Below, in pieces: positions 1,173 through 21,185 of a DNA stretch of 64,000 bases. The DNA is from Mesorhizobium sp. 65-26 (GTDB lineage: Bacteria > Pseudomonadota > Alphaproteobacteria > Rhizobiales > Rhizobiaceae). How positions within the stretch are numbered: the first letter of the stretch is position 1; each line of letters opens with the position of its first letter. The notes below the pieces were generated by a model that worked only from the letters and a program-made list of their open reading frames with translations, made no database searches and had not been told where the DNA came from. Position numbers and translations under genes: made by a program. The stretch lies in the NCBI GenBank assembly GCA_001899205.1, contig MKVL01000004.1, positions 265,388-329,387 of the forward strand. Direction: 5' to 3'.

Positions 1173-1177
1173 GCAGC

Positions 1178-2065: not shown

Positions 2066-2072
2066 GGCTCCG

Positions 2073-3470: not shown

Positions 3471-3498
3471 TCGGCAAAAGCCGCCGCATGGGTTCGCG

Positions 3499-3520
3499 GC
3501 CGCCGTCACGGCGGCTCTTT
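3499..3520 (+). terminator. Possible weak terminator after lpdA
   Basis: The self-complementary stem GCCGCCGTCACGGCGGC is followed by TCTTT, 28 bases after the lpdA stop. The T-run is short and interrupted, so this is only a plausible terminator between convergent genes. Confidence 0.35.
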
Positions 3521-3563
3521 ACCCCTTGCCCGCGCGTCGCTTTTCCGGTCGGCGTCGGAAGAA

Positions 3564-5093
<1,530 letters not shown>

Positions 5094-5094
5094 G

Positions 5095-6081
5095 CTATTC
5101 GCCCTTTCTCGTGCCGAGGAGCATGATGCGGTCGAGGCCGAGCGCCAGAAGCAGGACGAGCCCCATGACGATCAGCTCGACATAGTTCGGCGTGTTCAGC
5201 AGCCGCAGGCCGTTCTGCACCACCGCCAGCGCCAGCACGCCGCCCAATGTGCGCCACATGTCGCCATAGCCGCCCTTGAGTCGGGTGCCGCCGAGCACGA
5301 CGGCGATGATCGCCCACAGTTCCCAGCTGCGGCCGGCCTGCGGCTCGGCGGTGCCGAGCCGCATGGACAGAAGCACGCCGCTCAACGCCGCGAGGAAACC
5401 GCAAAGGGTGAAATTGATCAGCTTGTGGCGGCCGACGCGGATGCCGGCATCGCGCGCCGCTTCGACATTGTCGCCCACCGCGTAGGCTTCGCGCCCGTGG
5501 CGCGTGCTGGTCAGGAACCACTGGAAGAACAGCACCAGCGCGAAGAAGATCATCGCGGTCAGCGAGATCTGGCCGAGATAGACCTCGGGGATTTCGGTGT
5601 ATTCGAAATCGTTGACGAGAAGCGCGTTGCCGCCGGTGTAGACGAAGACCAGGCCGCGTATGCCGATCAGCGCGCCGAGCGTCACCACGAAGGAGTGCAT
5701 GCCCGAGAGCGCCACCAGCGAGCCGTTGAGCAGGCCCATCGCCGTGCCGGCAAGCAGGGCCGCGGCGATTGCCACGGGCGCGCTGGCGCCGCCATTGTGG
5801 AGGCCGATGGCGAGCGCGCAGGCCAGCGCGAGCGTCGCGCCGACCGACAGATCGATCTCGCCATTGATCATGACCAGCGTCATGCCGATCGCCAGGATGC
5901 CGATGAAGGCGCTTTGGGTCAGGACGTTGGCGAGGTTGTTGACCGTCAGGAAATAAGGCGAGACGACGCTGAAGAAGACGCAGGCTGCGAGCAGGAAGAG
6001 CCAGATGTGGCTGCGCAGCAGAATGGTGCGCGCCATACCCTTGTGGCCGGACAGCGCGGGCTGGGTGAGGGATTGGGTCAT
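5095..6081 (-). CDS. Sugar ABC transporter permease (CUT2/RbsC type), second of pair
   Basis: This integral inner-membrane permease has 328 residues and about eight to ten hydrophobic segments. It carries the RbsC-type hallmark around INGEIDLSVGATLALACALA and the cytoplasmic-loop GGTRLKGGYGDMWRTLGG that contacts the ATPase. The ATG at 6081 overlaps the stop of the upstream permease by four bases (ATGA), which fixes the start and implies translational coupling. The two permeases differ in sequence, so they probably form a heterodimer. The ATPase gene follows immediately. Confidence 0.93.
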   Translation of the reverse strand: MTQSLTQPALSGHKGMARTILLRSHIWLFLLAACVFFSVVSPYFLTVNNLANVLTQSAFIGILAIGMTLVMINGEIDLSVGATLALACALAIGLHNGGASAPVAIAAALLAGTAMGLLNGSLVALSGMHSFVVTLGALIGIRGLVFVYTGGNALLVNDFEYTEIPEVYLGQISLTAMIFFALVLFFQWFLTSTRHGREAYAVGDNVEAARDAGIRVGRHKLINFTLCGFLAALSGVLLSMRLGTAEPQAGRSWELWAIIAVVLGGTRLKGGYGDMWRTLGGVLALAVVQNGLRLLNTPNYVELIVMGLVLLLALGLDRIMLLGTRKGE

Positions 6082-7034
6082 GCCAGGAGCCTTCCGCGCT
6101 TCGCGGCGAGATCGATCCACACGGCCATGATGACGATCGCCCATGTCACCAGCCATTGGACGTAATAGGGGAAGCCCATCAGGATCAGGCCGTTCTCGAT
6201 GAAGCCGAGCATGGCCACGCCAACGATGGTGCGCCAGATGCTGCCGTAGCCTCCGAGCAGCGAGGTGCCGCCAAGGATGATCCCCGCCAGCACCGTCAGC
6301 TCGTAGCCCTGGCCGATCGTGCTTTGCGCGCCCATGACGCGGCTTCCCATGATGATCGCGGCGCATGCCGTCGCCAGGCCGCTGATGAGATAGGTGGCGA
6401 AAACGATCCTGGGCGCCGCGATGCCCGAGAAAATGGAGGCGGTCTCGTTGCCGCCGACAGCGAAGACGGCGCGGCCGAAACGGGTGCGCATCAGCACGAA
6501 GCCGGCCACGGCGGCGCCGAGGACCAGAAGCAGGACGGGCGCCGGAATTCCAAGCACGCTGCCCCTGCCGAAGAAGGAGAACCAGGTCGTGGAGTCCGCG
6601 ACGTTCACGTTGGCGCCGCCGGAATACCAGATCGTCACGCCCTGCAGCAGCGACAGCATGGCGAGCGTGGCAATCAGCGAGTCGAACCGCAGATAGGCGA
6701 CGAGGAAGCCGTTGCAGGCGCCGATCAACAGGCCGCAACACAAGGTGACGGCGAGCGCGCCGGCCGGTCCTATCTGGTTGTGCTGGGAAACGACCAGCAC
6801 CGAGAGAAAGGTGAGGCCGGAGCCGACCGAGAGGTCGAGGCGCCCGGAGATGACGACGAAGGTGACGCCGACGGCGATGGTTCCGACGATAGCGATCTGC
6901 CTGAGCACGCCGAGCAGGTTGCCGACGGTCAAGAAGGTCGGCGCGCTCAACGCGACGATGGCCAGGATCGCCGCGAATGCGATGATCAGGCCGTTGCGCC
7001 TGATGAAATCCCCTGTGGTCAAAGTTGCGATCAT
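6078..7034 (-). CDS. Sugar ABC transporter permease (CUT2/RbsC type), first of pair
   Basis: This 318-residue inner-membrane permease shows the CUT2 signature VISGRLDLSVGSGLTF and the loop GGTSLLGGYGSIWRTIVG. It is the first gene of the leftward transporter operon. The start at 7034 is supported by a GGGAGG Shine-Dalgarno about 7 bases upstream and by alignment of its N-terminus with the partner permease. Two copies of the locus palindrome lie 94 and 189 bases upstream, between this gene and the divergently transcribed binding protein. Confidence 0.93.
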   Translation of the reverse strand: MIATLTTGDFIRRNGLIIAFAAILAIVALSAPTFLTVGNLLGVLRQIAIVGTIAVGVTFVVISGRLDLSVGSGLTFLSVLVVSQHNQIGPAGALAVTLCCGLLIGACNGFLVAYLRFDSLIATLAMLSLLQGVTIWYSGGANVNVADSTTWFSFFGRGSVLGIPAPVLLLVLGAAVAGFVLMRTRFGRAVFAVGGNETASIFSGIAAPRIVFATYLISGLATACAAIIMGSRVMGAQSTIGQGYELTVLAGIILGGTSLLGGYGSIWRTIVGVAMLGFIENGLILMGFPYYVQWLVTWAIVIMAVWIDLAAKRGRLLA

Positions 7035-7127
7035 CGATCGTGCCTCCCACACGCCGTCGCCAGGCCCGGTCATGCCGGGCGTTTTGCTTGGTCTTAGGCG
7101 TAAGGTGGATGCTTCGACAGGCGTAGA

Positions 7128-7144
7128 ATATCCATTTTGGATTT
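7128..7144. promoter_or_regulatory. Operator copy 1 of the sugar locus (TCCATTTTGGA core)
   Basis: The sequence ATATCCATTTTGGATTT matches the locus consensus AAATCCANNTTGGATTT, with an inverted TCCA/TGGA core. It lies in the divergent region between the transporter operon and the binding-protein gene. Its role as a repressor or activator site is inferred from recurrence. Confidence 0.6.
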
Positions 7145-7222
7145 CCATCGGCCGCATGGCCTGCTGTTCGCCGGCTTTGCGGAGCAGCCGGGAAAATGCC
7201 GCTTTCAATCGCCCACCGCCGG

Positions 7223-7239
7223 AAATCCACTTTGGACAA
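7223..7239. promoter_or_regulatory. Operator copy 2 of the sugar locus (TCCACTTTGGA core)
   Basis: The sequence AAATCCACTTTGGACAA is a second copy in the same divergent region, 95 bases centre to centre from copy 1 (about nine helical turns). It lies 105 bases before the binding-protein start. The spacing could allow looping or independent control of the two promoters. Confidence 0.55.
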
Positions 7240-7343
7240 CTGGCGTGTTGTGCGGCGACCGGCTCGTCGCAATCCTTCGCGTATCCGGAAAGAACGCATC
7301 CCGATCCGAGAGGCTCGCGGACGTCAACGGACAACGGAGGAGG

Positions 7344-8345
7344 ATGAGAATGTTCATGAAAGTCTTGACGCGCGCTCTCGCAGGCGCGCTCGTAATCTCG
7401 GCGGTCGCCTCGCATGCGGTGGCGCAGGATGCCCCCGACTGGCTGGGCGGGCCGCTCAAGAAGCCATTGTCGGAAACGCGCATCGGGATCACGGTTCTTT
7501 ATCCCGGCTCGAACTCCTATCAGGCCATGTATGCCAAGGCTGCCGAAGCCTATGCCGCCAAGCTCGGCATCAAGGCGACCGTCATGGACCCGCAAGGCGA
7601 CCCCGCCACGCAGTTCAACCAGCTGCAGGACATGATCTCGCAGAAGATGGACGCCATCGTGCTGTGGCCGACGTCGCAGAACGCGCTCATCCCGGCCGTC
7701 AGGCAGGCCGACCGCGCCGGCATTCCGGTCGTCACGTCGAACTCGCCGATCGGCGAGGCCGGTCAGCCCTACATCAAGGCGCATACGGGCCCGAACGACT
7801 GCGCGCTTGCTAAGCAGGCCGCCGAGATGCTCGGTGATGCCGTGGGCGGCAAGGGCAACATCGTGATCGTCGAAGGCACGCCCGGCTATACAGTGTCCAT
7901 CGTCCGCAACAACTGCTTCCTTGATGTGATGGAAGACAAGTACAAGGATATCAAGATCCTCGGCAGCCAGCCCGCTGACTGGAACCGCGAGAAGGCCCAG
8001 AAGACGATGGAGACCTTCCTCACCCAGTTCGGTGACAAGATCAACGGCGTCTACGCCTTTGACGACGGCATGGGGCTTGGTGTCATCAGCGCGCTGCAGG
8101 CAGCTGGCAAGAAGCCGGGCGAGGTGAAGGTCGTCACCTGCAACCTCTTCGGCGAAGGCTGGGATGCGATCAAGGCCGGCTGGGAAACCGGCTCGGGCAA
8201 GCAGTCGCCGATCGATGACGCCGAACTCGCCATCCGCACCGCGATCAAGGTGGTGAACGGCATCGAGGTGCCGAAGAGCCAGGACATCGAGATCGACAAG
8301 ATCACGGCCACGAACGTCGACAAGTTCGAGCGGCCCAGCTGGTAA
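7344..8345 (+). CDS. Periplasmic sugar-binding protein of the CUT2 ABC transporter (RbsB type)
   Basis: This secreted receptor delivers a sugar or polyol to the two permeases encoded divergently. The 333-residue protein has a Sec signal peptide of about 27 residues ending at SHAVAQ. A Peripla_BP_4-type fold follows, with recognisable segments IGITVLYPGSNSYQAM, QGDPATQFNQLQDMISQKMD and IVLWPTS. GGAGGAGG directly abuts ATG 7344, so the real start may be ATG 7350 or 7356, which have better spacing. The gene is divergent from the permease operon across a 309-base region with two locus palindromes, and a strong bidirectional terminator follows. Confidence 0.93.
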   Translation: MRMFMKVLTRALAGALVISAVASHAVAQDAPDWLGGPLKKPLSETRIGITVLYPGSNSYQAMYAKAAEAYAAKLGIKATVMDPQGDPATQFNQLQDMISQKMDAIVLWPTSQNALIPAVRQADRAGIPVVTSNSPIGEAGQPYIKAHTGPNDCALAKQAAEMLGDAVGGKGNIVIVEGTPGYTVSIVRNNCFLDVMEDKYKDIKILGSQPADWNREKAQKTMETFLTQFGDKINGVYAFDDGMGLGVISALQAAGKKPGEVKVVTCNLFGEGWDAIKAGWETGSGKQSPIDDAELAIRTAIKVVNGIEVPKSQDIEIDKITATNVDKFERPSW

Positions 8346-8397
8346 TCTCCCAGGACGCGGCGCGCGCTCCATCGGGCGCGCGCCGTTCGCGTAACCG

Positions 8398-8434
8398 AAA
8401 AAGACCGGCATTCGTCTGAATGCCGGTCTTTTTC
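8398..8434. terminator. Bidirectional rho-independent terminator
   Basis: AAAAAGACCGGCATTC, a four-base loop, then GAATGCCGGTCTTTTTC form an 11-bp perfect stem flanked by A and T runs. It separates the convergent binding-protein gene and the leftward oxidoreductase operon and can serve both. Confidence 0.9.
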
Positions 8435-8443
8435 GTGAGGCGC

Positions 8444-9568
8444 TCAGATGGCGTCGACGGCGACGTAGGCCCGACTAGCCGCTGACATCGCGGCGGCCTC
8501 GACGACTTTCTGCACCTCCAGGGCTTCCTGGAAATCGGGACTTGCCTTCACCTTGCCGGCATGGGCATCCAGCAGTTCCGCCACCTCGATCACCTTCAGG
8601 TCGTTGAAACCGAGATGATGCCCCGGGGCCGGGCAGAAGCGTCCATAGGGCTCGTGCTCCGGACCGGCCTCGATCCTGGCGAAGCCGTCGCGGCCGCGCG
8701 CCGTTGGTTTCATCAGGAGGAGCTCGTTCATGCGCTCCTGCGTGAAGGCGATGGCCCCCTTGCTGCCGGTGACCTCGAAGTCGAGCTGCATCTTGCGTCC
8801 GGTCGCGGTCCAGTTGGCCTCGATGGACCCGATGATGCCGCGTTCGAAACGGCATAGCATCACTGTGCGGTCGTCCACGGTAACCGGCACGCGGCGGGTA
8901 TCGCCGCGCGAGGCGGGACGGGTCGGCACGACGGTGGCCTGCGCGGCCATGACTTCCGCGATCGGGCCGAGCAGGTAGCGGGCCATCGAAATGATGTGGC
9001 TGCCGATGTCGGCGAGGGCGCCGCCGCCGGCCGGATCCGTACGGAAAGAGTGCGGAACCTCGGGGTCGGCCATGTAGTTCTCCGCGTGGATGCCGCGGAA
9101 GCCGGTGACGTCGCCGATCTCGCCGCTGGCGATGATCTCACGCGCCAGCTTGATCATCGGATTGCGCAGGAAGTTGAAGCCAACCATCGTCACCACGTCG
9201 GCCGCCGAGGCGGCTTCAGTCATGCGGCGCGCGCTTTGCGTGGTCACGGAAAGCGGTTTCTCGCAATAGACCGTCTTGCCGGCTTCGATGGCGGCGATCG
9301 CCATCTCCTCGTGGAGGCTGTTCGGCGCGGTGATGGCAACAATGCCGATACGCGGATCATCGATCAGTCGTCGCCAGTCGCCAGTACCCTCGGCAAAGCC
9401 GAGTGCCTTCGCCGAGTCCCGCGCTGCCTCGTCGGTGACATCGGCGAGCGATATCAGTTCCGGCGCGACCGGAACGTCGAACAGCCCGGCCACGGAGCGA
9501 AATGCGTTGGCGTGGCAGCGGCCCATGAAGCCGGCACCGATCAGCCCTATTCCCACGGATTTCGTCAT
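8444..9568 (-). CDS. Gfo/Idh/MocA-family NAD(P)-dependent dehydrogenase
   Basis: This cytoplasmic sugar or cyclitol dehydrogenase has 374 residues. The N-terminal Rossmann domain starts IGLIGAGFMGRCHANAF, the family motif is CEKPLS, and the C-terminal sheet domain includes GGGALADIGSHIISMARYLLG, where the conserved Asp and His of the active site are expected. The ATG at 9568 overlaps the stop of the upstream dehydrogenase by four bases. Two different members of this family in one operon are common when a sugar is oxidised and then epimerised or re-reduced. The exact substrate cannot be read from the sequence. Confidence 0.9.
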   Translation of the reverse strand: MTKSVGIGLIGAGFMGRCHANAFRSVAGLFDVPVAPELISLADVTDEAARDSAKALGFAEGTGDWRRLIDDPRIGIVAITAPNSLHEEMAIAAIEAGKTVYCEKPLSVTTQSARRMTEAASAADVVTMVGFNFLRNPMIKLAREIIASGEIGDVTGFRGIHAENYMADPEVPHSFRTDPAGGGALADIGSHIISMARYLLGPIAEVMAAQATVVPTRPASRGDTRRVPVTVDDRTVMLCRFERGIIGSIEANWTATGRKMQLDFEVTGSKGAIAFTQERMNELLLMKPTARGRDGFARIEAGPEHEPYGRFCPAPGHHLGFNDLKVIEVAELLDAHAGKVKASPDFQEALEVQKVVEAAAMSAASRAYVAVDAI

Positions 9569-10578
9569 GCGACCGCTCCCTGCAAGCCGGTGGCGATGGC
9601 CTTGCGCTGGCGCATGGAAGCGCCACAGGCGAGCGCCAGCACGAGCGCCCTGCGCCCGTCCTCGACGGTGACGGGAGGCTCCCCGCCCTTAGCCACCATC
9701 CTGTGGAAGGCATCGATCATGCGCGTGAACGCTTCGGCGTAGCGCTCGAGGAAGAAGTGACGAGGACGGGTCTGGGCGGCCATGTAGGCTGACGTGCTGT
9801 GTTTGAGCTGGATGTCGCGGACATTCTCGGTCTGCAGCATCCCTTCGCTGCCGAATGCCTCAATGCGCTGGTCGAAGCCGTAGACCGCACGACGGCTGTT
9901 GCTGATGTGGCAGAGCTTGCCGGCCGGCGTGCGCATCACCGTCATCGCCGTGTCGACATCGCCGATCGCGCCGAGTTCGGGATCGACCATGCAGCTTGCC
10001 GAGGTGAAGACGTCCTCGGGTTCCTCGCCCAGTATCCAGCGGGCGAGATCGAGGTCGTGGATGGTGCTGTCGCAGAAATAGCCGCCGGAGGTGCGGGCAT
10101 AGGCGACCGATGGCGGGATCGGGTCGCGGTTGATGATGGTCAATGTGTGCAAGGCGCCGACCTCTCCGGCGCGCACGGCGTCGCGCAAGGCAGAGACTGT
10201 CGGGTCGAAGCGCCGGTTGAATGCCAGCATGAAGGGCACCGGCCTCGCCTTCAGCACCGCGATTGCCTGGTCGACGCGGCCCATGTCCAGGTCGAGCGGC
10301 TTTTCGCACAGCATCGGCTTGCCCGCCGCGGCGGCGGCCTGGATGTATTCGAGGTGCGTGTTGGTCGGCGTGGCGATGACGACGGCGTCGACGGCGGGAT
10401 CGGCAAGGGCGGTTTCGATGTCGCCGACAGCCCGGCCGCCATAGGCCTCCGCCGCCTCACGCGCCGAGGCTAGGTTCGGATTGAAGACGCTGACCAGCCG
10501 CATCCCGGGATGGGCCGCGATCGCCGGCCCATAGACATGCGCCATCCGTCCGCTGCCGAACAGGCAAATTCCAAGCAT
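9565..10578 (-). CDS. Gfo/Idh/MocA-family dehydrogenase, inositol 2-dehydrogenase-like
   Basis: This 337-residue NAD(P)-dependent dehydrogenase resembles IolG-type inositol 2-dehydrogenases. It shows the Rossmann start GICLFGSGRMAHVYG, the CEKPLDLD motif, FNRRFDPT, and the catalytic-type segment GGYFCDSTIHDLDLARWILG. The start at 10578 has a well-placed GGAGGA. It is the first gene of a two-gene leftward operon that ends at the 8398-8434 terminator. One locus palindrome lies 88 bases upstream, in the divergent region shared with the alcohol dehydrogenase. The inositol-type label is by resemblance only. Confidence 0.88.
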   Translation of the reverse strand: MLGICLFGSGRMAHVYGPAIAAHPGMRLVSVFNPNLASAREAAEAYGGRAVGDIETALADPAVDAVVIATPTNTHLEYIQAAAAAGKPMLCEKPLDLDMGRVDQAIAVLKARPVPFMLAFNRRFDPTVSALRDAVRAGEVGALHTLTIINRDPIPPSVAYARTSGGYFCDSTIHDLDLARWILGEEPEDVFTSASCMVDPELGAIGDVDTAMTVMRTPAGKLCHISNSRRAVYGFDQRIEAFGSEGMLQTENVRDIQLKHSTSAYMAAQTRPRHFFLERYAEAFTRMIDAFHRMVAKGGEPPVTVEDGRRALVLALACGASMRQRKAIATGLQGAVA

Positions 10579-10665
10579 GTTTCCTCCGCTTTGCTGATCG
10601 CGACGCTCCAGGCACATCGCGCGGGGGCATCCTTCCACACCGGTCCGGTCCGCCGAACCGGGCAT

Positions 10666-10682
10666 CCGTCCAAAATGGATTT
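10666..10682. promoter_or_regulatory. Operator copy 3 of the sugar locus (TCCAAAATGGA core)
   Basis: CCGTCCAAAATGGATTT lies between the divergent inositol-dehydrogenase-like operon and the zinc alcohol dehydrogenase, 65 bases before the latter. The core and right arm match the other copies; the left flank is weaker. Confidence 0.6.
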
Positions 10683-10746
10683 TTTGCCCGGAGCGCCGCG
10701 GCGCGCGCTGCTCTAGTCCTCTCGGGATCAATCCGAGGAGGACGAC

Positions 10747-11784
10747 ATGTCGACAATGACCGCCGCTGTGCTCGTGGAGCCGGGCCGTTTCGAAATCGAG
10801 CGTGTTCCCTTGCCGGCTGCTGGTCCGGACGACGTCCTGATCAAGGTGGCCTACTGCGGCATATGCGGCACCGACAGCCACATCTTCGACGGCGGGTTCA
10901 TGCGTCACCGCTTGCCGCTCACTCCCGGCCATGAATTCTCGGGCACCATTGCGGCTGTGGGCAGCGCTGTCTCGCATGTCAGGCTGGGACAGAAGGTCGT
11001 CGTGGACATCAACCATGGCTGCGGCCATTGCTACTTCTGCCGTCGCAACGAGGTGATGAGTTGTCCTTCCGTGGAACAGATCGGCATAGACAGGGCAGGT
11101 GGCTTCGCGAGCCATGTCGTGGTGCCCGGCCGGCTGGTGATCGCTGCCCCGCATGAGGCCGACATGCGGCTTCTGGCGCTGACCGAGCCGGTCGCCTGCG
11201 TGGTGCGCTCGGCGCGCAAGTCCGGCGCGGGTTTTGCGCGCTCCGTGCTGGTGCTCGGCGCGGGGCCGATCGGGAACCTGCATGTGCAGATGATGCGGCT
11301 GGTCGGCGCGGCTCCCATCGTCGTGGCCGACCGCTCTCCGGCGCGTGCCGCGCTTGCCCTGAAGGCCGGCGCCGACGCCGTGGTTTCCAACATGGGCGAC
11401 CTCGACGACACCGTGCGCCGGATGACCGGGGGCAGGGGCGTGGACCTGGCGATCGAGAGCGTCGGGCTCAAGGAACTCTATGCGGCGGCGCTCGGCCTCA
11501 TCCGGTCTGGTGGCCAGATCGCGGTCTTCGGGCTGGCGCATGAGGGTGACACGCTCTCCCTGCCGCTCCTGCCGGCGGTACTCAGGGAATATGGGCTCAA
11601 GGGCTCCGTTGCCGGCATGGGCGAGGACATGCATGACGCGCTGACCTTGCTGACGCATGGTCGCTTCGACGTCGAGCCCTTCACGCGCGCCGTTTATCCG
11701 CTGGAGCGGATCCAGGAAGCGTTCGACACGCTGCGTGATCGGCCTGGCGACCTGAAGACGCTGATCGCGTTGCCGGACAATTGA
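10747..11784 (+). CDS. Zinc-dependent alcohol/polyol dehydrogenase (MDR family)
   Basis: This 345-residue medium-chain dehydrogenase resembles sorbitol/threonine dehydrogenases. Cys37 in CGICGTD and His62-Glu63 in GHEFSG supply the catalytic zinc site. Four cysteines (92, 95, 98 and 106) form the structural zinc site, and VLGAGPIGNLHVQM is the NAD(P)-binding motif. The start has a GAGGAGGAC ribosome-binding site. It is transcribed alone, divergent from the two Gfo/Idh/MocA genes and convergent with the GMC oxidoreductase. The neighbours suggest it oxidises a polyol or sugar taken up by the CUT2 transporter. Confidence 0.92.
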   Translation: MSTMTAAVLVEPGRFEIERVPLPAAGPDDVLIKVAYCGICGTDSHIFDGGFMRHRLPLTPGHEFSGTIAAVGSAVSHVRLGQKVVVDINHGCGHCYFCRRNEVMSCPSVEQIGIDRAGGFASHVVVPGRLVIAAPHEADMRLLALTEPVACVVRSARKSGAGFARSVLVLGAGPIGNLHVQMMRLVGAAPIVVADRSPARAALALKAGADAVVSNMGDLDDTVRRMTGGRGVDLAIESVGLKELYAAALGLIRSGGQIAVFGLAHEGDTLSLPLLPAVLREYGLKGSVAGMGEDMHDALTLLTHGRFDVEPFTRAVYPLERIQEAFDTLRDRPGDLKTLIALPDN

Positions 11785-11798
11785 CCTGGGCTCGGTGG

Positions 11799-13403
11799 CT
11801 AGCGCCGGCTGTCTTCGAGGATCATGTCCGCCGCCCTCTCACCGATCATCACCGTCGGCGCATGGGTGTTGGCGGTGACATGCCCCGGCATGATCGACGC
11901 GTCGGCGATCCGTAACCCCGCCAGCCCGCGAAGGCGAAGCCGTGGGTCCACCACCGCCCGATCATCCACGCCCATGCGGCAACCGCCGACAGGGTGCAGC
12001 AGCGAGAGGCCATTGGCGCGGCAGTATTCGAGCAACGCCTTGTCGCTCTCCTTGTCGCGGCCGGGCGTGATTTCGTTTGCCACGTAGCCGGCCATGGGTT
12101 GCGTCATCGACAGGCGCCGGGCGTGCCGCAGCCCCGCGATGGCGGCCCTGCAGTCGGCCTCGCTCTCCAGGAAGTTGAAGCGGATGGCGGGTTGGGTTCG
12201 AATGTCCGGGGCGGTCGCGTGCACGGAGCCCGTGGCGTCCGGCCGCATGTGCTCGGCAAGGATGGTGAAGCCCGGAAATGGCCGCGGCTTGAGCTGCTCG
12301 TCGGTGCACCAGGCCATGAAGGTGACCATCATGTCGGGCCTTGTCTGGGCAAGCCCCGAAACGATGAAGTCGTTGGCATAATTGCCGTTCGTGGCCATCA
12401 GGCCGGAGCGGTGGAAGAAATAGCGCGCCAGCGCGAGGCCGCCTCGCAGCGGATTGTTGTAGAGGTCGTTGACGGTCAGCGGCTTGGTGCAGCGGCATTC
12501 GAGCCCGACGCCGAAATGATCGCGAAGGTCCTCGCCGACGCCCGGCAGTTCGTGGCGAACATCGATGCCGATACGGCGGAGATGCTCGCCAGCCCCGATG
12601 CCGGAAAGCTCCAGAAGCTGAGGCGAGCCATAGGCGCCGGCACACAGGACCACTTCGGCGCGGGCATTGGCCAGCCTGGGCTCGCCATCCACGCTATAGT
12701 CGACGCCGGTCACGGCGCTTCCCTCGATGCGCAGGCGCGAGACCAGCGCACGCGTGACGATCCGCAGGCTCTTCTGGCCCTTCAGGTAACCCGCCGCTGT
12801 CGACCAGCGACGGCCCTTGCGCGTGGTCACCTGGACATAGCCGGCGCCGATCTGGCTCGGCCCGTTGAAATCGTCATTGCGCGGCGCGCCGAGATTGGCG
12901 GCGGCAGCGATGAACGCGTCGCCGAGTTCGAAGCCGGAAACATCCGAGACGCTGAGCGGGCCACCCACGCCGTGATAGGCGCTGGCGCCGCGCTGCTGGT
13001 CCTCGGATTTCTTGTAGTAAGGCAGGACGTCGTCGAAGCCCCAGCCGGAGCAGCCGGCGGCGGCCCAGGCGTCAAAATCCTCGCGCTGGCCACGCATGTA
13101 GATCATGCCGTTGATCGAGCCGGTACCGCCAAGCACCTTGCCGCGTGGCTGGAACAGGCGCCGTCCGTTCAGTCCGGGCTCGGGCTCCGAGGTGAAGCAC
13201 CAGTTGAGCGCCGGATTGGCGTAAAGGCGGGCATAGCCAAGCGGAATGTGAATCCACGGATTGGTATCGCGACCGCCGGCCTCGAGCAGCAGCACCGAAT
13301 ATCCGGCGTCGCTCAGCCGGCCGGCGACGACGCAGCCGGCGGATCCGGCTCCGATGACCACATAGTCGTAGGTCTCGGCCGAAGTGTCGATCTTGGATGT
13401 CAT
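11799..13403 (-). CDS. GMC-family FAD-dependent oxidoreductase (choline dehydrogenase-like)
   Basis: This flavin-dependent alcohol oxidase or dehydrogenase of the glucose-methanol-choline family has 534 residues from the chosen start. It shows the FAD-binding VVIGAGSAGCVVAGRLSD, GMC signature 1 near GKVLGGTGSINGMIYMRG, signature 2 near GAYGSPQLLELSGIG, and the catalytic histidine regions HPVGGCRMG and TANTHAPTVMIGERAA. ATG 13403 places the N-terminus 11 residues before the FAD strand. An in-frame ATG at 13451 is possible but would add an unusual arginine-rich leader. It is divergent from the HTH/binding-protein fusion across a region that contains a perfect operator palindrome. Confidence 0.92.
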   Translation of the reverse strand: MTSKIDTSAETYDYVVIGAGSAGCVVAGRLSDAGYSVLLLEAGGRDTNPWIHIPLGYARLYANPALNWCFTSEPEPGLNGRRLFQPRGKVLGGTGSINGMIYMRGQREDFDAWAAAGCSGWGFDDVLPYYKKSEDQQRGASAYHGVGGPLSVSDVSGFELGDAFIAAAANLGAPRNDDFNGPSQIGAGYVQVTTRKGRRWSTAAGYLKGQKSLRIVTRALVSRLRIEGSAVTGVDYSVDGEPRLANARAEVVLCAGAYGSPQLLELSGIGAGEHLRRIGIDVRHELPGVGEDLRDHFGVGLECRCTKPLTVNDLYNNPLRGGLALARYFFHRSGLMATNGNYANDFIVSGLAQTRPDMMVTFMAWCTDEQLKPRPFPGFTILAEHMRPDATGSVHATAPDIRTQPAIRFNFLESEADCRAAIAGLRHARRLSMTQPMAGYVANEITPGRDKESDKALLEYCRANGLSLLHPVGGCRMGVDDRAVVDPRLRLRGLAGLRIADASIMPGHVTANTHAPTVMIGERAADMILEDSRR

Positions 13404-13478
13404 GCCGCATTCCCCGGCGGCCGATGGGCGACCGCGGGCCGAATATTCCATGCAGGCCCGAGGGGCAGAACGGTCGAG

Positions 13479-13495
13479 AAATCCAAATTGGATTT
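13479..13495. promoter_or_regulatory. Operator copy 4 of the sugar locus (perfect palindrome)
   Basis: AAATCCAA-A-TTGGATTT is a perfect 8-bp inverted repeat around one central base. It lies 76 bases before the GMC oxidoreductase and 69 bases before the putative regulator, so it could mediate autoregulation. It is the best copy of the set and defines the consensus. Confidence 0.7.
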
Positions 13496-13563
13496 ATCTC
13501 GATACCCCCGAAACGGCACGGGGGTGCAAGCTGGTCGGGATCAATCGCGAACAGGGGCCTGGG

Positions 13564-15273
13564 ATGACGCGCGAGGAACTGCTGCGCATACTCGACTACC
13601 TCGACAAGATGGCGAAGCTGAACAGCGGCCGGGCGGCGCTCGCCGACATCGACGCGCGTTGGAACATCGTCGCCTACACCATACGGCGTCATCTGCAGGG
13701 CAAGCCGCTGACCATCACCTCGCTGGCGGCGGCATCGGGGCTTCCCTACGGAACCGCGATGCGGCGCATCGAAGGGATGGTGACCGAGGGGCTCTTGATG
13801 AAGCGGCCGCGTTCGAAGAGCGGCAAATCCTTCTCGATCCATCCGACCCCGACCTTGATAGGAGAGGTGGAGGGCTACGCCGCCGAGATAAAAGGCCTGA
13901 TCGGCAGCACGTTCGGCTTCAACGGAGGCGATGGCTCGCCCGACGGATTCTTCTTCGGCGGGTCGTACATGGCGGCGCGCATCCTGCCTTATCCGAGCGC
14001 CATGCCGCGCGGCCTTGGCTACGACCGGGTCGTGCGGATCCTGTGCAATTCGGATCCGACCTTCAAGACACTCAACGAGTTCACCAAGAACCTGCGCGAA
14101 TTCTGTGGCGGCGACCTCGAGATTCTGAACCTGCCGCTCGACGACCTGCGCGAGGAAATCCTCGCCAACGCGACGCGCAAGACATCAGCCTATGATGCCA
14201 TCGCCATAGACCTTCCCTGGATTGGCGAATTCGCCAGCCGCGGCGCCATCCTGCCCTTGGACGGGATCATCGAACGCGAGAACTTCGCCTATGCCGACTT
14301 CCACAGCGGCGCTTGGAATGCGGCGCGTCATCAAGGCCGGCAGTTCGGCATTCCCATTCAGCCGACCTACGAATTGCTGTTCTATCGCAGCGACCTTTTC
14401 CAGTTGGCCGGGCTGGACGCACCACGTACGGCGAAGGATGTGCTGACCGCTGCGAGCACGCTGCACCGGGCGGGCGGCTGTCCCTCCGGCATCGTCATGA
14501 ATTACGGGCGCGGTACGCCTGTCGCCCACACCTTCATGCAGACCAAGGCGGCGTTCGGCGAGCCGATCGTCAATCTGCCACGGATCGGCGGCGAACTTGA
14601 TTTCGACCTCTCGGATCTCCGGCCCGAGCATTACCGGCCGCTGATCGATACGCCGATCGGCAGGGAGACGGCGGAGTTCCTGCTCGAACTGCGCGGCTTC
14701 GCTCATCCGCAAAGCCTGCAATGCAACTGGGACAAGCGCATCCGCATCTTCGCGCAAGGGCAGGCGGCCATGTGCTACGAATGGTCGATCCGTGCCGGCG
14801 CCTTCGAGCTGGATCGGTCGTCACCGACCTTCGGGAAGGTCGACTTCGTCCCGCATCCGCGCGGCCCCGAAGGGCGTGGTGTCTCGCCCGTCGGTGGCTT
14901 CTGCCTCTCCATTCCGGCCAATCTCGGCGAAGAGCGCCAGATGAAGGCATGGCGGCTGATCGCCTATCTGACGCAACCCGAGCTGATGAAGTGGTACGTG
15001 CAGAACGGGAGCCTGGTCAGCCCGCGATTCTCGACCAGCGCGGACCCGGAAGTGCGTGCCATGAGCCCGATCATCAGTGCCGTCGATGCCATGGAGAAGC
15101 GAGGCGAGCTGCGCATCTGGCCGCGCCCGCCGATCCCGGAGTTCCACGGCATCAGCAGGGTGCTCGGGGAAGAGATATTCAACATGCTGAGCGGTCGTAT
15201 CTCTCCCGAGGTCTCGCTCAAGCAGGCCCAGAACCGCGTCGATGGCGTTCTGCGAGCCAGTGGGCGTTACTAG
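13564..15273 (+). CDS. Putative one-component regulator: winged HTH fused to a family-1 solute-binding-protein domain
   Basis: The 569-residue protein begins with a helical leader and a winged helix-turn-helix (about residues 48-92: LTITSLAAASGLPYGTAM, then RRIEGMVTEGLLMKRPRSKSGK). A region of about 430 residues follows that resembles ABC-importer binding proteins of the SBP_bac_1 type. Recognisable parts are YDAIAIDLPWIGEFASRGAI, IPIQPTYELLFYRSDLF, GQAAMCYEWSI and FCLSIPANLGEERQMKAW. There is no signal peptide or membrane segment, so it should be cytoplasmic. The neighbouring transporter uses an unrelated Peripla_BP_4 receptor, so this is not a mis-targeted transporter subunit. It probably senses a sugar and binds the locus palindromes. 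ATG 13564 keeps the palindrome at 13479 outside the coding region. SgrR, an HTH joined to an SBP_bac_5 domain, is a partial precedent. Confidence 0.8.
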   Translation: MTREELLRILDYLDKMAKLNSGRAALADIDARWNIVAYTIRRHLQGKPLTITSLAAASGLPYGTAMRRIEGMVTEGLLMKRPRSKSGKSFSIHPTPTLIGEVEGYAAEIKGLIGSTFGFNGGDGSPDGFFFGGSYMAARILPYPSAMPRGLGYDRVVRILCNSDPTFKTLNEFTKNLREFCGGDLEILNLPLDDLREEILANATRKTSAYDAIAIDLPWIGEFASRGAILPLDGIIERENFAYADFHSGAWNAARHQGRQFGIPIQPTYELLFYRSDLFQLAGLDAPRTAKDVLTAASTLHRAGGCPSGIVMNYGRGTPVAHTFMQTKAAFGEPIVNLPRIGGELDFDLSDLRPEHYRPLIDTPIGRETAEFLLELRGFAHPQSLQCNWDKRIRIFAQGQAAMCYEWSIRAGAFELDRSSPTFGKVDFVPHPRGPEGRGVSPVGGFCLSIPANLGEERQMKAWRLIAYLTQPELMKWYVQNGSLVSPRFSTSADPEVRAMSPIISAVDAMEKRGELRIWPRPPIPEFHGISRVLGEEIFNMLSGRISPEVSLKQAQNRVDGVLRASGRY

Positions 15274-15369
15274 CTTCGCCAAGGACCGCTTTCGAATCCG
15301 ACCTGCGATTGGACGCCCACGGTTCTTGTGTGGTCGGGAAGCCGATACGATCCAAGATTTTCGGGAAAT

Positions 15370-15402
15370 TGGTGCCGCTTGCGTGACGCGAACACGCGAC
15401 CC
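15370..15402 (-). repeat. tRNA-Thr 3'-end fragment (att-like direct repeat)
   Basis: On the minus strand the 33 bases match the last 33 bases of the tRNA-Thr at 26529-26604, including the encoded CCA, with a single change that turns the T-loop TTCGAGT into TTCGCGT. The match stops at the anticodon-arm boundary, and no D-arm or acceptor 5' strand follows, so it is not a working tRNA. The rest of the 15274-15664 gap holds nothing else I recognise. Confidence 0.75.
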
Positions 15403-15664
15403 TCTTCGATGGAAGGTTTACAGAGGCCCGCCTTCAGGCAGGCGGCCATCTCATTCGTAACGAAGGTCAATACTTCCGGGGTTCCTGTAGGCCCCCGAGC
15501 CATCGTTCGCGCCTGGAGTCGCGGGAGGAGCGATCCGCATTTGGCCTGGCTTCGGTGGCCGCGACCTTCAGTTGTTTACGAATCCGTAAGTCGCTCCGCC
15601 CAACCCGCACGGCTATAAATGGTCAGGCGAGGGGACATGACGGCAGCCTGAAAGGAAGTTTGCG

Positions 15665-16991: not shown

Positions 16992-17591
16992 CTAGAAGCT
17001 TGGCGGGCTGATTGCCCAGATCACGACGGCCTCTCGCTCGCCCGAATTCTTGTACCTGTGCGGCTCGCCTGACGAATAGGAGCAACTGTCTCCTTCATAG
17101 AGGTGGAAATGTCGCTCGCCGACCCAGATGTCGAGTTCACCCGAGACGACGAAGCCGACGCCATCGCCCTCGTGGGTGTAGCTTTCGGCGCTTTCGGTTC
17201 CCGGCGGCAGCCGCGTATAGATCATCTCCACCTGCAGGCTCATCTTCGGCGTGACGAGCTCGTCGATGATACCGCCCTCATACTGTATCTTCAGGCGGTT
17301 GCCGCTCCTGACGACATAGCCATGCTCTTCCTGCGGCACGGGAGAGGCGCCAGCGAAAAACCACTGCACGGTCACGCCCAGGCTTCGGGCGATGTTCACC
17401 AGCGCCGGAATCGATGGGTAGGCAAGGTTACGCTCGATCTGGCTGATGTAGCCGATGGAAAGGTTGGCGCTTTCCGACAACTGCGAAAGCGTCATCTTGC
17501 GCCGTTTGCGCAAACCACGAATGCGATCCCCAAGAACCGGATCGCCGCCAACAGATCCCAGCCCGGTTTCGGGACCGCTCTCAGACGACAT
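16992..17591 (-). CDS. XRE-family transcriptional regulator with C-terminal cupin
   Basis: This 199-residue regulator has an N-terminal XRE helix-turn-helix (GDRIRGLRKRRKMTLSQLSE, then SANLSIGYISQIERNLAYPS, about residues 20-75). A linker and a cupin sensor barrel follow (about 100-195, with ESYTHEGDGVGFVVSGELDI and SYSSGEPHRYKN). Such proteins commonly control adjacent amine, polyamine or amino-acid catabolic genes. The start at 17591 has a GGAG site; a GTG/ATG further upstream is possible. It is divergent from the flavin oxidoreductase across a region with a 19-bp inverted repeat that is its likely operator. Confidence 0.92.
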   Translation of the reverse strand: MSSESGPETGLGSVGGDPVLGDRIRGLRKRRKMTLSQLSESANLSIGYISQIERNLAYPSIPALVNIARSLGVTVQWFFAGASPVPQEEHGYVVRSGNRLKIQYEGGIIDELVTPKMSLQVEMIYTRLPPGTESAESYTHEGDGVGFVVSGELDIWVGERHFHLYEGDSCSYSSGEPHRYKNSGEREAVVIWAISPPSF

Positions 17592-17785
17592 GCTCACTCC
17601 GGATACAATGCCCAATAAAACGGGCTACCCGACTCGGCCAAAGATCTTTCGTTCTTGTCGATCAAAAGCGCTGTTCGCAAGGTGGGCATTTGGAATTCCA
17701 GCCTTTCCGCACGCAGCCTTCAACGTCGCCAGTCTTTTCAGGCTCAAGGACAACCATTTCACCGCCTGCGATAAATCGCAATGAA

Positions 17786-17832
17786 TTTTGCCATTGGTAA
17801 AAAAATGTCTGGATTTTTTACCATCGGCAAAA
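17786..17832. promoter_or_regulatory. Inverted-repeat operator between XRE-cupin regulator and flavin oxidoreductase
   Basis: TTTTGCCATTGGTAAAAAA and TTTTTTACCATCGGCAAAA are inverted copies (17 of 19 positions match) separated by 9 bases. The element lies 36 bases before the oxidoreductase start and about 195 bases before the regulator start. It is AT-rich in a GC-rich setting and suits binding by a dimeric XRE regulator. Confidence 0.65.
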
Positions 17833-17868
17833 TATGAGAGCGCAGTTTGCCAGCGACGGAGGAGATCG

Positions 17869-19851
17869 ATGGCCAGCGCCGCGCATGCCATACAACCTTC
17901 GACGCCATTCCCGCGCCTTTTCCAACCTTTGCGGATCCGTGGCGTGCGGCTCAAGAATCGTATCATGTCCACCGGGCACGACACGACGCTGCCGACCGAT
18001 GGCCTGGTCAACGATGCGCTGATCGCCTACCACGAGGCGCGGGCGCGGGGCGGCGCCGGGCTTATTGTCAGTCAGGTCGCGGGCGTCCACGAGACGGCGC
18101 GCTACACCTCGCACATGCTCATGGCGACGGAAGACGAATGCATCGCCGGCTATCGGAAGCTGGCCGACATCTGCCATGCGCATGACTGCAAGATATTTTC
18201 CCAGCTTTTCCATCCAGGCCGGGAGATCATGGAAGGCGGCGATGGCCTGCTGACGGTGGCCTACGCGCCATCCGTGTCGCCGAACGAGCGCTTCCGTGTC
18301 ATGCCGCGCGAGCTCGGCAAACGCATGATCGACGAGATCGTTCGCGGCTACGCCGAGGCGGCGCGGCGGATGCACAGGGCGGGACTGGACGGCGTCGAGT
18401 TCGTCGCCAGCCACGGCTACCTGCCGGCGCAGTTCTTCAATCCGCGCGTCAACCGCCGAGTTGATAACTACGGTGGATCGCTGGAGAACCGGCTGCGCTT
18501 CGCGACCGAAGCGCTCGCCGCGATGCGCGCTGCGACGTCCGAGGACTTCGTCATCGGCTTGCGCATCAGCGGCAGCGAACGCGACGAGCACGGCCTGACC
18601 ATGGACGAGGCGCTGGAGGCCTGCCTTGGACTCGAGCCATTGCTCGACTACGTCAATGTCACTGCCGGCACCTCCGCTTCCGCCGGCGGCGCGGTGCATA
18701 TCGTGCCGCCCATGGCTTATCGCAATGCCTATCTGGCAAGCGACGCCGCACGGTTCCGGCAGGCGCTCGACATACCGATCATGGTGGCCGGGCGCATCAA
18801 CCAGCCGCATGAGGCCGAGGCGGTGCTGACGCAGGGTTCCGCGGATGTCTGCGGCATGACGCGGGCACTGATCTGCGATCCCGACATGCCCGCGAAAGCC
18901 GAAGAGGGCCGCACGGACGACATCCGCGCCTGCATCGCCTGCAACCAGGCCTGCATCGGCCATTTCCACCGCGGATTTCCCATCTCCTGCATCCAACATC
19001 CGGAGACGGGGCGCGAGCTCAGATTTGGCAAGCTCGTACCGGCCCCGCGTCCGAAGAAGGTGATGGTCGTGGGGGGCGGTCCGGCCGGAATGAAGGCCGC
19101 CGCCGTCGCGGCCGCCCGGGGGCATCAGGTCACCCTCTATGAGGCGTCCTCACATCTCGGAGGACAGGCGCTGCTGGCCCAGCTGCTGCCGCGCCGCTCC
19201 GAATTCGGCGGCATCGTCACCAATCTTTCGCGCGAACTCGAACTGGCGCAGGTGCGCGTGATGAAGGGCGCGCGCGTCGACCAATCCGTGGTCGACGCGG
19301 AAAAGCCGGATGCGGTGGTCATCGCGACCGGCGCGAGGCCCTACCTTCCGGAAATACCCGATGACGGGAGCGTGCAGGTCGTCGATGCCTGGCAGGTGCT
19401 GAGGAAGCAGGTCAAGACGGGGAGCCGCACGGTGGTGGCGGACTGGCGTTGCGACTGGATCGGACCAGGCATCGCCGAGATGCTGGTCAATGACGGCTGC
19501 AGCGTCGAACTTGCCGTCAACGGCACCCATCCGGGCGAGTTGCTGCCACTCTACGTGCGCGACAACATTGCCGCCGAACTGCACAGGCTTGGCGTGGCCG
19601 TAACCCCATATGCTCGCCTTTTCGGCTGCGACGGCGGCACCGTCTACATGCAGCATACCGCCAGCGAACAGCCGATCATGTTCGAGAATGTCGACACCCT
19701 GGTGCTTTGCCTGGGGCATGAGCCGGTAAGCGAATTGAGCGACATGCTGGCGGGCAAAGTGCCGGAACTGTACGTCATCGGGGACAGCATGGCCCCGCGC
19801 ACGGCGGAGGAGGCCGTCTACGAAGGACTGAAGGTCGGCGCCGCGCTGTAG
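17869..19851 (+). CDS. NADH:flavin oxidoreductase (Old Yellow Enzyme/2,4-dienoyl-CoA reductase family with Fe-S and FAD domains)
   Basis: This 660-residue multidomain flavoenzyme starts with an FMN-binding TIM barrel (FPRLFQPLRIRGVRLKNRIM; FNPRVNRRVDNYGGSLENR). A 4Fe-4S cluster motif follows (CIACNQACIGHFHRGFPISC), then a FAD/NAD-binding module (KVMVVGGGPAGMKAAAVAAA). The layout is shared by trimethylamine dehydrogenase, 2,4-dienoyl-CoA reductase and the N-methylproline (stachydrine) demethylases of rhizobia. With a polyamine-type importer and an XRE-cupin regulator beside it, an N-methylated amine or betaine substrate is the best guess. ATG 17869 follows a strong GGAGGAGA; upstream in-frame starts fall within the operator. 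Confidence 0.9.
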   Translation: MASAAHAIQPSTPFPRLFQPLRIRGVRLKNRIMSTGHDTTLPTDGLVNDALIAYHEARARGGAGLIVSQVAGVHETARYTSHMLMATEDECIAGYRKLADICHAHDCKIFSQLFHPGREIMEGGDGLLTVAYAPSVSPNERFRVMPRELGKRMIDEIVRGYAEAARRMHRAGLDGVEFVASHGYLPAQFFNPRVNRRVDNYGGSLENRLRFATEALAAMRAATSEDFVIGLRISGSERDEHGLTMDEALEACLGLEPLLDYVNVTAGTSASAGGAVHIVPPMAYRNAYLASDAARFRQALDIPIMVAGRINQPHEAEAVLTQGSADVCGMTRALICDPDMPAKAEEGRTDDIRACIACNQACIGHFHRGFPISCIQHPETGRELRFGKLVPAPRPKKVMVVGGGPAGMKAAAVAAARGHQVTLYEASSHLGGQALLAQLLPRRSEFGGIVTNLSRELELAQVRVMKGARVDQSVVDAEKPDAVVIATGARPYLPEIPDDGSVQVVDAWQVLRKQVKTGSRTVVADWRCDWIGPGIAEMLVNDGCSVELAVNGTHPGELLPLYVRDNIAAELHRLGVAVTPYARLFGCDGGTVYMQHTASEQPIMFENVDTLVLCLGHEPVSELSDMLAGKVPELYVIGDSMAPRTAEEAVYEGLKVGAAL

Positions 19852-19980
19852 GCGGCATCGGACAGGCGTGCCGGTCGCCTTCAGGCGCGCCGGATGGGGA
19901 CGTCAAGGGAATGAATGGGGGACGGACCTGCTCGCGAAAAGCCGACAGCCCGTCTTCGAACAAAACTGGAGGAGAAATTC

Positions 19981-21108
19981 ATGGCATTCGAAGGAAAAGG
20001 TATCAGCCGCCGCAGCGCGATGAAGCTTGCGCTCGGCGCGACAATCGGCATGCCCGCGATCCTCGGCCGCGCAAATGTCGCTTCGGCCGAAGCGTCCTTT
20101 GCCGGCGAAGGGCTGATCGTCGTGTCCTGGTCGGGAAATCATGAGCTCAGCTTCCGCGAGGCGGTGGTCAAGCCGTTCAACGAGAAGTACGGCACGAAGG
20201 TCGAAACCGTCGGTGGCTGGGACCAGATGATCGCGCAGATCGTCGCGGCGCCGGCCGACAATCCGCCTTTCGACCTGACGATCGCCGACGAGTATACGAC
20301 CACGACCGGCATGGCGCAGAACGTGTTCACGAAGGTCGACCGGTCGAAGATCCCCGGCAACGCGAACATCTACCCCTGGTTCGACGAGAATCGTGGCCCG
20401 GCGAAGGACTATGGCGTGCCCTTCGGCACAGGCTCGCTGTGGATGCTGACCTCCAAGTCGAGCGGTCTGAAGCCCGAGAGCTGGAAGGGCTTCTGGGACG
20501 AGAAGGCGATGGGCAAATCGACCCTCGACGCGTCCGCCTTCTACTGGGATCTCTGCATCCCGGCGCTGCTCTCCTCCGCCAAGCCCGGCATCGACGAAGT
20601 GTTCGGCTCGCCCGACGAGGTCGAGCTCCTGTTCAAGGAACTGGACAAGCTCAAGGTCGCCAAATGGTACAAGGACGGCGCCGAGCTGACCAATCTGATG
20701 ACCCAGGAAGAGGCGGCGGTGGCGATGATGTATTCCGCCGACGCCTACGGCTTCATCAAGCAGTATGGCGACGATTTCGAAGCCGCCATCCCCAAGGAAG
20801 GAACGGCCTCCTACAGCAACTGGTTCATGAAGGTGCGCGGCACCAAGCATTCGGAGCTCAGCGACCTCTTCCTGGGTTACCTGCTCGAGAAGACAACGCA
20901 GCAGAACTTCCTCAATGCCTCGACCGACTTCATGTCGCTGCAGGGCCTGGAGCCGCCGCCGCACTGGCCGAGCTATCCGCGCAACGAGGAAGCGCTGCGC
21001 GGCACCTACAAGCTGTTCGGCATCGACGGCTGGGACAAGTTCGGCCCGCATTGGGATGCCTACAGCGCCCGCATGAAGGAAACCATCGCCAAGACGACAC
21101 AGGGCTGA
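19981..21108 (+). CDS. Polyamine/amine-type ABC transporter periplasmic binding protein (PotD-like)
   Basis: This 375-residue secreted receptor has a twin-arginine-like leader (GISRRSAMKLALGATIGMPA, cleaved near ASAEA). A family-1 spermidine/putrescine-type binding domain follows, with GLIVVSWSG, FDLTIADEYTT, YGVPFGTGSLWM and AYGFIKQYGDDF. ATG 19981 follows GGAGGAGAAATTC. It heads an ABC importer operon (binding protein, ATPase, two permeases) 130 bases behind the flavin oxidoreductase, and is probably co-regulated with it and supplies its substrate. True polyamines, amino acids or betaines are all possible ligands. Confidence 0.9.
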   Translation: MAFEGKGISRRSAMKLALGATIGMPAILGRANVASAEASFAGEGLIVVSWSGNHELSFREAVVKPFNEKYGTKVETVGGWDQMIAQIVAAPADNPPFDLTIADEYTTTTGMAQNVFTKVDRSKIPGNANIYPWFDENRGPAKDYGVPFGTGSLWMLTSKSSGLKPESWKGFWDEKAMGKSTLDASAFYWDLCIPALLSSAKPGIDEVFGSPDEVELLFKELDKLKVAKWYKDGAELTNLMTQEEAAVAMMYSADAYGFIKQYGDDFEAAIPKEGTASYSNWFMKVRGTKHSELSDLFLGYLLEKTTQQNFLNASTDFMSLQGLEPPPHWPSYPRNEEALRGTYKLFGIDGWDKFGPHWDAYSARMKETIAKTTQG

Positions 21109-21185
21109 TCCCAGGCCTGCGCGAAGCGCCCCCCGCCGGGCGGCGCTTCGCGCGTTTCGACGCGGAGTTGACGGTTTTGGCTGAC

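Follow-up and report, generated by a model that had tools for sequence, protein, structure and literature searches.

The gene at positions 13564..15273 of the window (the whole stretch of 64,000 nucleotides of Mesorhizobium sp. 65-26 that was analysed) very probably encodes a cytoplasmic gene switch, in which a sugar-receptor fold is joined to a DNA-binding head. Our best reading, with a probability of roughly 0.87, is that the product is a cytoplasmic one-component regulator that senses a sugar-like ligand, binds the repeat TRTCCANNNTGGAYA through a winged helix-turn-helix (HTH), and controls the neighbouring CUT2 uptake and oxidation pathway. The domain make-up, the lack of an export signal, the conservation of the family, the conserved repeat with its placement, and the conservation of the gene cluster were all computed directly. 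The regulatory role is well supported by these computations, and ligand sensing by the solute-binding (SBP) half is likely. The gene and its domains are as follows.

13564..15273, plus strand: HTH-SBP regulator gene, ATG start, 569 aa; the open reading frame was confirmed
13699..13839, plus strand: winged HTH, residues about 46-92, from Pfam, scans of members, profile against PDB, and alignment
14026..15270, plus strand: complete SBP_bac_1 domain (type II, MalE/TMBP-like), residues about 155-569, from Pfam and the family profile

The C-terminal assignment is the clearer of the two. SBP_bac_1 (PF01547) matches residues 189-473 of the 569-aa protein with an E-value of 2e-19 (71.2 bits against a curated Pfam cut-off of 26), SBP_bac_8 matches residues 172-497 (E 4e-16), and all 29 family members scanned singly match SBP_bac_1 at E up to 0.1. 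A phmmer comparison of the whole protein with PDB gave matches confined to residue 159 onward (best 60 of 62 chains). A profile of 44 family members aligns with solved sugar and polyol receptors from profile position about 156 to 565, including 5iai (7.5e-59, positions 156-560), the trehalose/maltose receptor TMBP (1eu8; 2.8e-40), and a sorbitol receptor (4rya; 3.2e-34); because the profile spans whole solved receptors, the SBP half is a complete fold. The first-pass annotation, made from the letters alone, had described an SBP_bac_1-type region here and had allowed that it might score as another family, which it did not.

The same annotation had placed a winged HTH at the N-terminus, and this too holds, at residues about 46-92, when other members and the 44-member profile are brought in. 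Pfam matches to the 569-aa protein alone are sub-threshold, both for HTH_IclR (residues 46-80, E 0.0025, 18 bits against a cut-off of 22) and for MarR_2 (13.5 bits against 27). Among the 29 members scanned singly at E up to 0.1, 17 match MarR_2 (best 4.6e-5) and eight match HTH_IclR (best 2.2e-7). The first 112 columns of the 44-member profile, compared with PDB, match mainly winged-HTH chains, among them TubR (7.9e-4) and SlyA/MarR (4.5e-3); a few pentatricopeptide chains are also matched at chance-like values of 0.3-0.7. Residues A65 and R67 in the winged HTH are invariant across the 44 aligned members.

These proteins form a real, widespread and mostly mislabelled regulator family; where annotation was visible, most members are named 'extracellular solute-binding protein'. 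Full-length members were found in 5 of 61 near-relative genomes, 28 of 297 genomes of the order (37 matched at 1e-60, nine of them via a receptor without the HTH part), 9 of 28 genomes of one family, 8 of 385 genomes of the class, and 6 of 398 genomes of the phylum (7 matched); these genome sets overlap, and the order, class and phylum searches scored only three to four candidates per genome. The weakest full-length member in the order search scores 626 bits, and receptors lacking the HTH score no higher than 236 with one exception at 476, a signal-bearing cousin in genome G238; divergent full-length members in the class search score 528 bits. Among 72,556 plasmid records 34 match at 1e-40, two of them from Paraburkholderia and the others listed under Alphaproteobacteria genera. 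The family is also represented in part on a contig binned as Oceanospirillaceae. In a phage collection there were matches to the SBP half only, in three records, and no full-length HTH-SBP match. The genome of the window carries three members, of which the second lies 20 kb upstream, outside the window (41% identical), and the third on another contig (37% identical). Within the genus 3 of 37 searched genomes have a full-length member, and the family is therefore accessory there.

A tree of the members was divided by hand into groups I, II, IIIa, IIIb (an eight-row clade plus L082), IV and V, with L046 as an outlier; the duplicates L064 and L080 were excluded from the tree and from the set of upstream regions. 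Divergent members (L122-L124, and L126 in G728) occur in three 1.4-Mb genomes, each of which has TATTCANNNTGAATA at -46 to -55. Of their loci, the one examined (37% GC) again contains CUT2, SDR, M24 peptidase and E1 genes.

In the window the regulator gene lies beside a cluster of transport and oxidoreductase genes.

3564..5093, minus strand: CUT2 ATPase (ABC_tran)
5095..6081, minus strand: second CUT2 permease, start approximate
6078..7034, minus strand: CUT2 permease (BPD_transp_2)
7350..8345, plus strand: CUT2 receptor, Peripla_BP_4 (E 6.8e-57), signal peptide-like N-terminus by eye
8444..9568, minus strand: Gfo/Idh/MocA oxidoreductase 1
9565..10578, minus strand: Gfo/Idh/MocA oxidoreductase 2
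10747..11784, plus strand: zinc-dependent alcohol dehydrogenase family protein
11799..13403, minus strand: GMC oxidoreductase, divergent from the regulator

The Peripla_BP_4 match agrees with the earlier claim that the local transporter uses a receptor of a different type. Seven relatives (L025-L030 and L032) keep most of the cluster, with identities of 58-64% for GMC, 59-67% for Gfo/Idh1 and 54-58% for Gfo/Idh2; CUT2 genes are also present, and the zinc dehydrogenase was not found in these seven clusters. A survey of 42 loci, using our own reference set for the CUT1 and CUT2 calls and leaving out L128 (a duplicate of L025) and loci under 12 kb such as L031, gave 33 with at least two CUT2 genes, five with CUT1 only, and four with neither, as raw counts without a background rate; the HTH-SBP order beside CUT2 transporters, for which the first-pass annotation had proposed a search, is thus a recurrent one.

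The other neighbours vary by clade. Clade II members are accompanied by 2-oxo acid dehydrogenase, SSADH and M24 peptidase-like genes, and often by ThuA, and ring-cleavage genes adjoin the regulator in part of clade IV. Six clade IV loci (L041, L042, L043, L044, L045 and L106) contain YciI together with varying Gfo/Idh, butanediol-type dehydrogenase, intradiol dioxygenase and maleylacetate reductase genes, the last two in five of the six; such gene sets perhaps encode a pathway from a cyclitol-like compound to hydroxyquinol. At five of the nine clade I loci (window positions 1-13403 with L099; L027, L028, L029 and L097) a second HTH-SBP gene or genes of the clade II type adjoin, either 2-oxo acid dehydrogenase/SSADH or ThuA with a second CUT2 ATPase, which suggests two linked pathway halves under near-identical operators. 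Positions 16992-22220 of the window hold a separate group, with an XRE-cupin regulator, an Old Yellow Enzyme-like FMN/FAD protein, a solute-binding protein and an ABC ATPase, in which no operator match was found at up to 2 mismatches.

Four candidate operators lie in this cluster.

13479..13495, no strand assigned: candidate operator 1, perfect 17-mer palindrome AAATCCAAATTGGATTT, GMC/regulator intergenic region, 68 bp before the ATG
7128..7144, no strand assigned: candidate operator 2, ATATCCATTTTGGATTT, divergent promoter of the permease and CUT2 receptor
7224..7238, no strand assigned: candidate operator 3, AATCCACTTTGGACA, same promoter region as operator 2, 95 bp apart
10667..10681, no strand assigned: candidate operator 4, CGTCCAAAATGGATT, divergent promoter of Gfo/Idh2 and the zinc dehydrogenase; 2 mismatches, the weakest

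The first of these, in front of the gene, is the 17-bp palindrome of the first-pass annotation, and it is perfect. A search of the 64 kb with AAATCCAANTTGGATTT at up to 3 mismatches returned this site and that at 7128 only (0.03 expected). With TRTCCANNNTGGAYA at up to 2 mismatches there are seven matches in the window against 2.48 expected, a number reached in one of 100 shuffles; four of the seven (7129, 7224, 10667 and 13480) fall within the three divergent intergenic regions, which make up about 640 of the 64000 bases, and those at 13385, 16402 and 26948 look like chance. The four sites span all three divergent promoters of the CUT2 transporter/oxidoreductase cluster. A scan of window positions 6900-15500 for sigma-70-type promoters found none. 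In the 6.84-Mb genome the exact core ATCCANNNTGGAT occurs at four places, two of them in the cluster, and the reversed control at none. A looser consensus at up to 1 mismatch occurs at 46 places, six of which adjoin the genome's three family members, against nine for the reversed control; the looser consensus lacks specificity here, and the core ATCCANNNTGGAT is the more specific of the two.

The repeat was recovered across the family from the 300 bp before every member, which gave 60 distinct upstream regions. Every exact 5-mer inverted repeat with a gap of 1-9 was counted, and ATCCA-N3-TGGAT ranks first, in 16 of the 60; the second and third (six and four regions) are overlapping forms of it, and the others reach at most three among the matches listed. 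The half-site TATCCA at one mismatch is found in 17 regions, permuted half-sites in at most two and other gaps in at most one. At up to 2 mismatches TRTCCANNNTGGAYA occurs in 33 of 60 regions (shuffle mean 1.56, maximum 5 in 100 shuffles) and at up to 1 mismatch in 19 (0.11, maximum 1), counts to be read with the consensus having been derived from the same regions and related sequences not being independent. Of the permuted controls run for TRTCCANNNTGGAYA, TATCCR alone scores high (18), being a nearly identical pattern, and the next-highest scores 2. A chance palindrome is ruled out by its rarity in the window, its top rank among repeats, and the shuffle controls.

The distribution of the site follows the tree. 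Within 300 bp and at up to 2 mismatches it precedes all members of clades I (9/9), II (18/18) and IIIa (4/4), 31 of 31 together, and one of nine in IIIb, one of 16 in IV, none of three in V, and not the outlier L046 (0/1); for L001 the best upstream match is a chance hit at -179, tied at 2 mismatches with the palindrome site. In all 18 clade II regions a second copy (up to 3 mismatches) lies exactly 21 bp away, other spacings being seen once each. Among 11 later non-duplicate members (L125 being excluded as the same gene as L025), six have a site within 300 bp at up to 2 mismatches (three weak, from low-GC genomes). Exhaustive inverted-repeat counts for a separate operator in IIIb, IV and V gave no repeat shared by more than three members.

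The 27 members without an upstream site include some with one at another promoter of the cluster and some with none. In clade V the regulator gene is an internal or the last gene of the CUT2 operon, and both loci examined of its three members (L103 and L104) have a perfect site before the CUT2 operon that holds it. A perfect site (L101) or a one-mismatch site (L102) stands between the regulator gene and a CUT1 operon, the clade IV locus L106 has a site before its ring-cleavage gene set, the third cluster of the window's genome (L100) has a one-mismatch site before E1alpha, and L129 and L131 have a site before other cluster genes. At L030 one-mismatch sites precede the regulator, the CUT2 genes and GMC alike. 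No site at up to 1 mismatch was found anywhere in the stretches examined of L096, L105, L107, L108 and L130. The 35 long loci (662,823 bases) together contain 10 perfect sites and 33 with one mismatch or better, where 10 shuffles gave means of 0.2 and 2.5. In the 42-locus survey 38 sites with one mismatch or better lie outside recognised genes and four inside; sites within unrecognised genes are counted among the 38, of which a few look like chance.

Three other readings have to be weighed. That the protein is an ordinary exported ABC-transporter receptor, with a mis-called or unusual N-terminus, would accord with the product names of its relatives and most database annotations, with the homology of the SBP half to periplasmic receptors, and with the signal peptide-like start of the related G238 protein. 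Export was judged by hydropathy and closed reading frames. The Kyte-Doolittle 19-residue maximum of the protein is 1.05 overall and 0.41 in the first 60 aa, and none of 60 members reaches 1.6 in the first 60 aa (highest 1.54), against 1.82 for the G238 cousin by the same measure. In seven relatives (L026, L056, L025, L027, L067, L029 and L045) the reading frame is already closed 2-10 codons upstream of the start, so that they have no room for an upstream signal peptide. On these two results an exported receptor with a wrong start is rejected, and they uphold the first-pass claim that the signal peptide is missing; the upstream start that might have supplied one did not turn up. With the HTH conserved as well, and a CUT2 receptor with a signal peptide-like start already in the cluster, we regard export as scarcely credible.

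It is also quite improbable that some other regulator uses the palindrome as its operator and that the HTH-SBP protein acts elsewhere. Most IIIb and IV members lack a site directly upstream, and some members have another regulator close by (of the FCD type in L034, AraC in L036, and one in L035). These neighbours vary from locus to locus, however, whereas the site accompanies the HTH-SBP gene across differing clusters and gene orders, including the perfect sites before the CUT2 operons of L103 and L104. Nor do the cores of three clade I clusters (L025, L030 and L032) contain an unrecognised open reading frame of at least 130 aa that could encode such a regulator; L026 has six unrecognised frames, one PAS-like by eye, all beyond Gfo/Idh1. 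A third reading accepts a DNA-binding regulator and supposes that its SBP half no longer binds a small ligand and serves as a structural or protein-docking part, for instance in reading the state of the transporter. Regulators that respond to the state of a transporter are known, and ligand binding by the SBP half is a prediction. Against it, W219, T268, E270, G444 and G445 are identical in all 44 aligned rows and position 446 is aromatic in all 44, while position 407 varies (W, Y, H or A); by the profile alignment and the TMBP pocket numbers, several of the invariant positions fall at the sugar pocket. Invariant positions lining the pocket in this alignment argue that a ligand is still bound, and we consider the loss of ligand binding unlikely.

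The preferred reading, a sugar-sensing regulator as the first-pass annotation had proposed, is supported by the domains, the lack of export, and an operator-like repeat conserved in three clades. We infer DNA binding, dimer state, ligand and sign of control as follows. The winged HTH would bind the inverted repeat TRTCCANNNTGGAYA, presumably as a dimer, and the tandem sites of clade II, at 21 bp or two helical turns, would suit two dimers on one DNA face. The SBP_bac_1 half would act as a Venus-flytrap sensor closing on a sugar-, polyol- or cyclitol-like molecule, the likely ligands given that the nearest solved relatives are named sugar or sorbitol receptors; the 'sugar' part of the reading, based on relatives and neighbours, is likely, and the molecule sensed would be the substrate or an early product of the neighbouring pathway. 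The targets in the window would be the three divergent promoters, serving the CUT2 transporter, the Gfo/Idh and zinc dehydrogenase genes, and the GMC oxidoreductase with the regulator itself. Our guess for the sign of control is repression relieved by ligand.

Behind the full-length regulator of the G238 locus (L095; 7955-9691) stands, at 9830-11173, a 448-aa protein whose start resembles a signal peptide, and CUT1 permeases and ATPases come next. Aligned over 415 positions, the mature part of the 448-aa protein shares 40% identity with residues 155-569 of the window protein, a closeness matched by many regulators. The tree, which has several long branches, puts it inside the SBP clade of the regulators (100/99) without fixing its exact position. 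It could be what is left of the source receptor, or else a sensor domain exported again, and the two G238 proteins possibly form an inside/outside receptor pair.

If the preferred reading is true, a regulator family across Alphaproteobacteria, and also on two Paraburkholderia plasmids, has been mislabelled as transport receptors, and its operator makes it possible to deduce the family's regulons from genome sequences and offers a way into CUT2 pathways that lack assigned substrates. Receptors of the MalE class would then also have become cytoplasmic sensors, besides the LacI-like type I and SgrR-like SBP_bac_5 types. More tentatively, and at rather less than even odds, a whole MalE-type Venus-flytrap receptor may have been recruited independently into the cytoplasm and given rise to a large family of sugar regulators, so far without a name, that parallels LacI and has an operator code of its own (TRTCCANNNTGGAYA, as a tandem at 21 bp). 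The G238 lineage, at least, also has this receptor domain behind a signal peptide, in the transporter receptor that directly follows the regulator, so that a single fold may read one and the same ligand both within the cell and outside it.

A GntR plus SBP_bac_1 architecture may occur in Paenibacillus; the literature searched, in which few subscription papers were included, showed no sign of it. The same literature held no description of a winged HTH fused to SBP_bac_1, of its operator or of its regulon, in keeping with the earlier remark that no such family had been characterised. The nearest winged-HTH matches are to IclR and MarR, from which the window protein differs in the approximately 415 residues of SBP_bac_1 that follow; membership of either family is rejected on the sub-threshold HTH_IclR and MarR_2 scores and, for IclR, on the absence of its effector domain from the Pfam matches. 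The solved receptors 5iai, 1eu8 and 4rya align with the receptor domain over its whole length and are transport receptors without a DNA-binding domain, and the export signal of SBP_bac_1 transporter receptors is absent here by hydropathy and closed frames.

The closest parallels are functional ones. LacI/GalR regulators join an HTH to the type I (Peripla_BP) receptor fold common to sugar transporters, and have palindromic operators and local sugar regulons. The window protein resembles them in joining an HTH to a transporter-type receptor fold, with a palindromic candidate operator and a probable local sugar regulon, but its fold is type II and MalE-like and its HTH is another one; no Peripla_BP effector domain is among its six Pfam families at E up to 1. 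The SgrR family is marked by an SBP_bac_5 domain and an SgrR-type N-terminal domain, and neither is among those six. SgrR of E. coli and DsvR share with the window protein an N-terminal HTH, a C-terminal solute-binding domain of the ABC-receptor type, a link to sugar control and, by sequence, a non-exported location; theirs is SBP_bac_5 instead of SBP_bac_1, and the surroundings are other. In a preprint, DsvR of V. cholerae is an SgrR-like protein with an HTH plus an SBP_bac5 domain and has a proposed 11-bp box, unlike the repeat found here (PMC13060122), and according to another paper certain SBP Pfam domains are used by regulators for sensing (PMC9602780); the kind is therefore already known. 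The window protein appears to function in the manner of SgrR or LacI, but on the tests made here it belongs to neither family.
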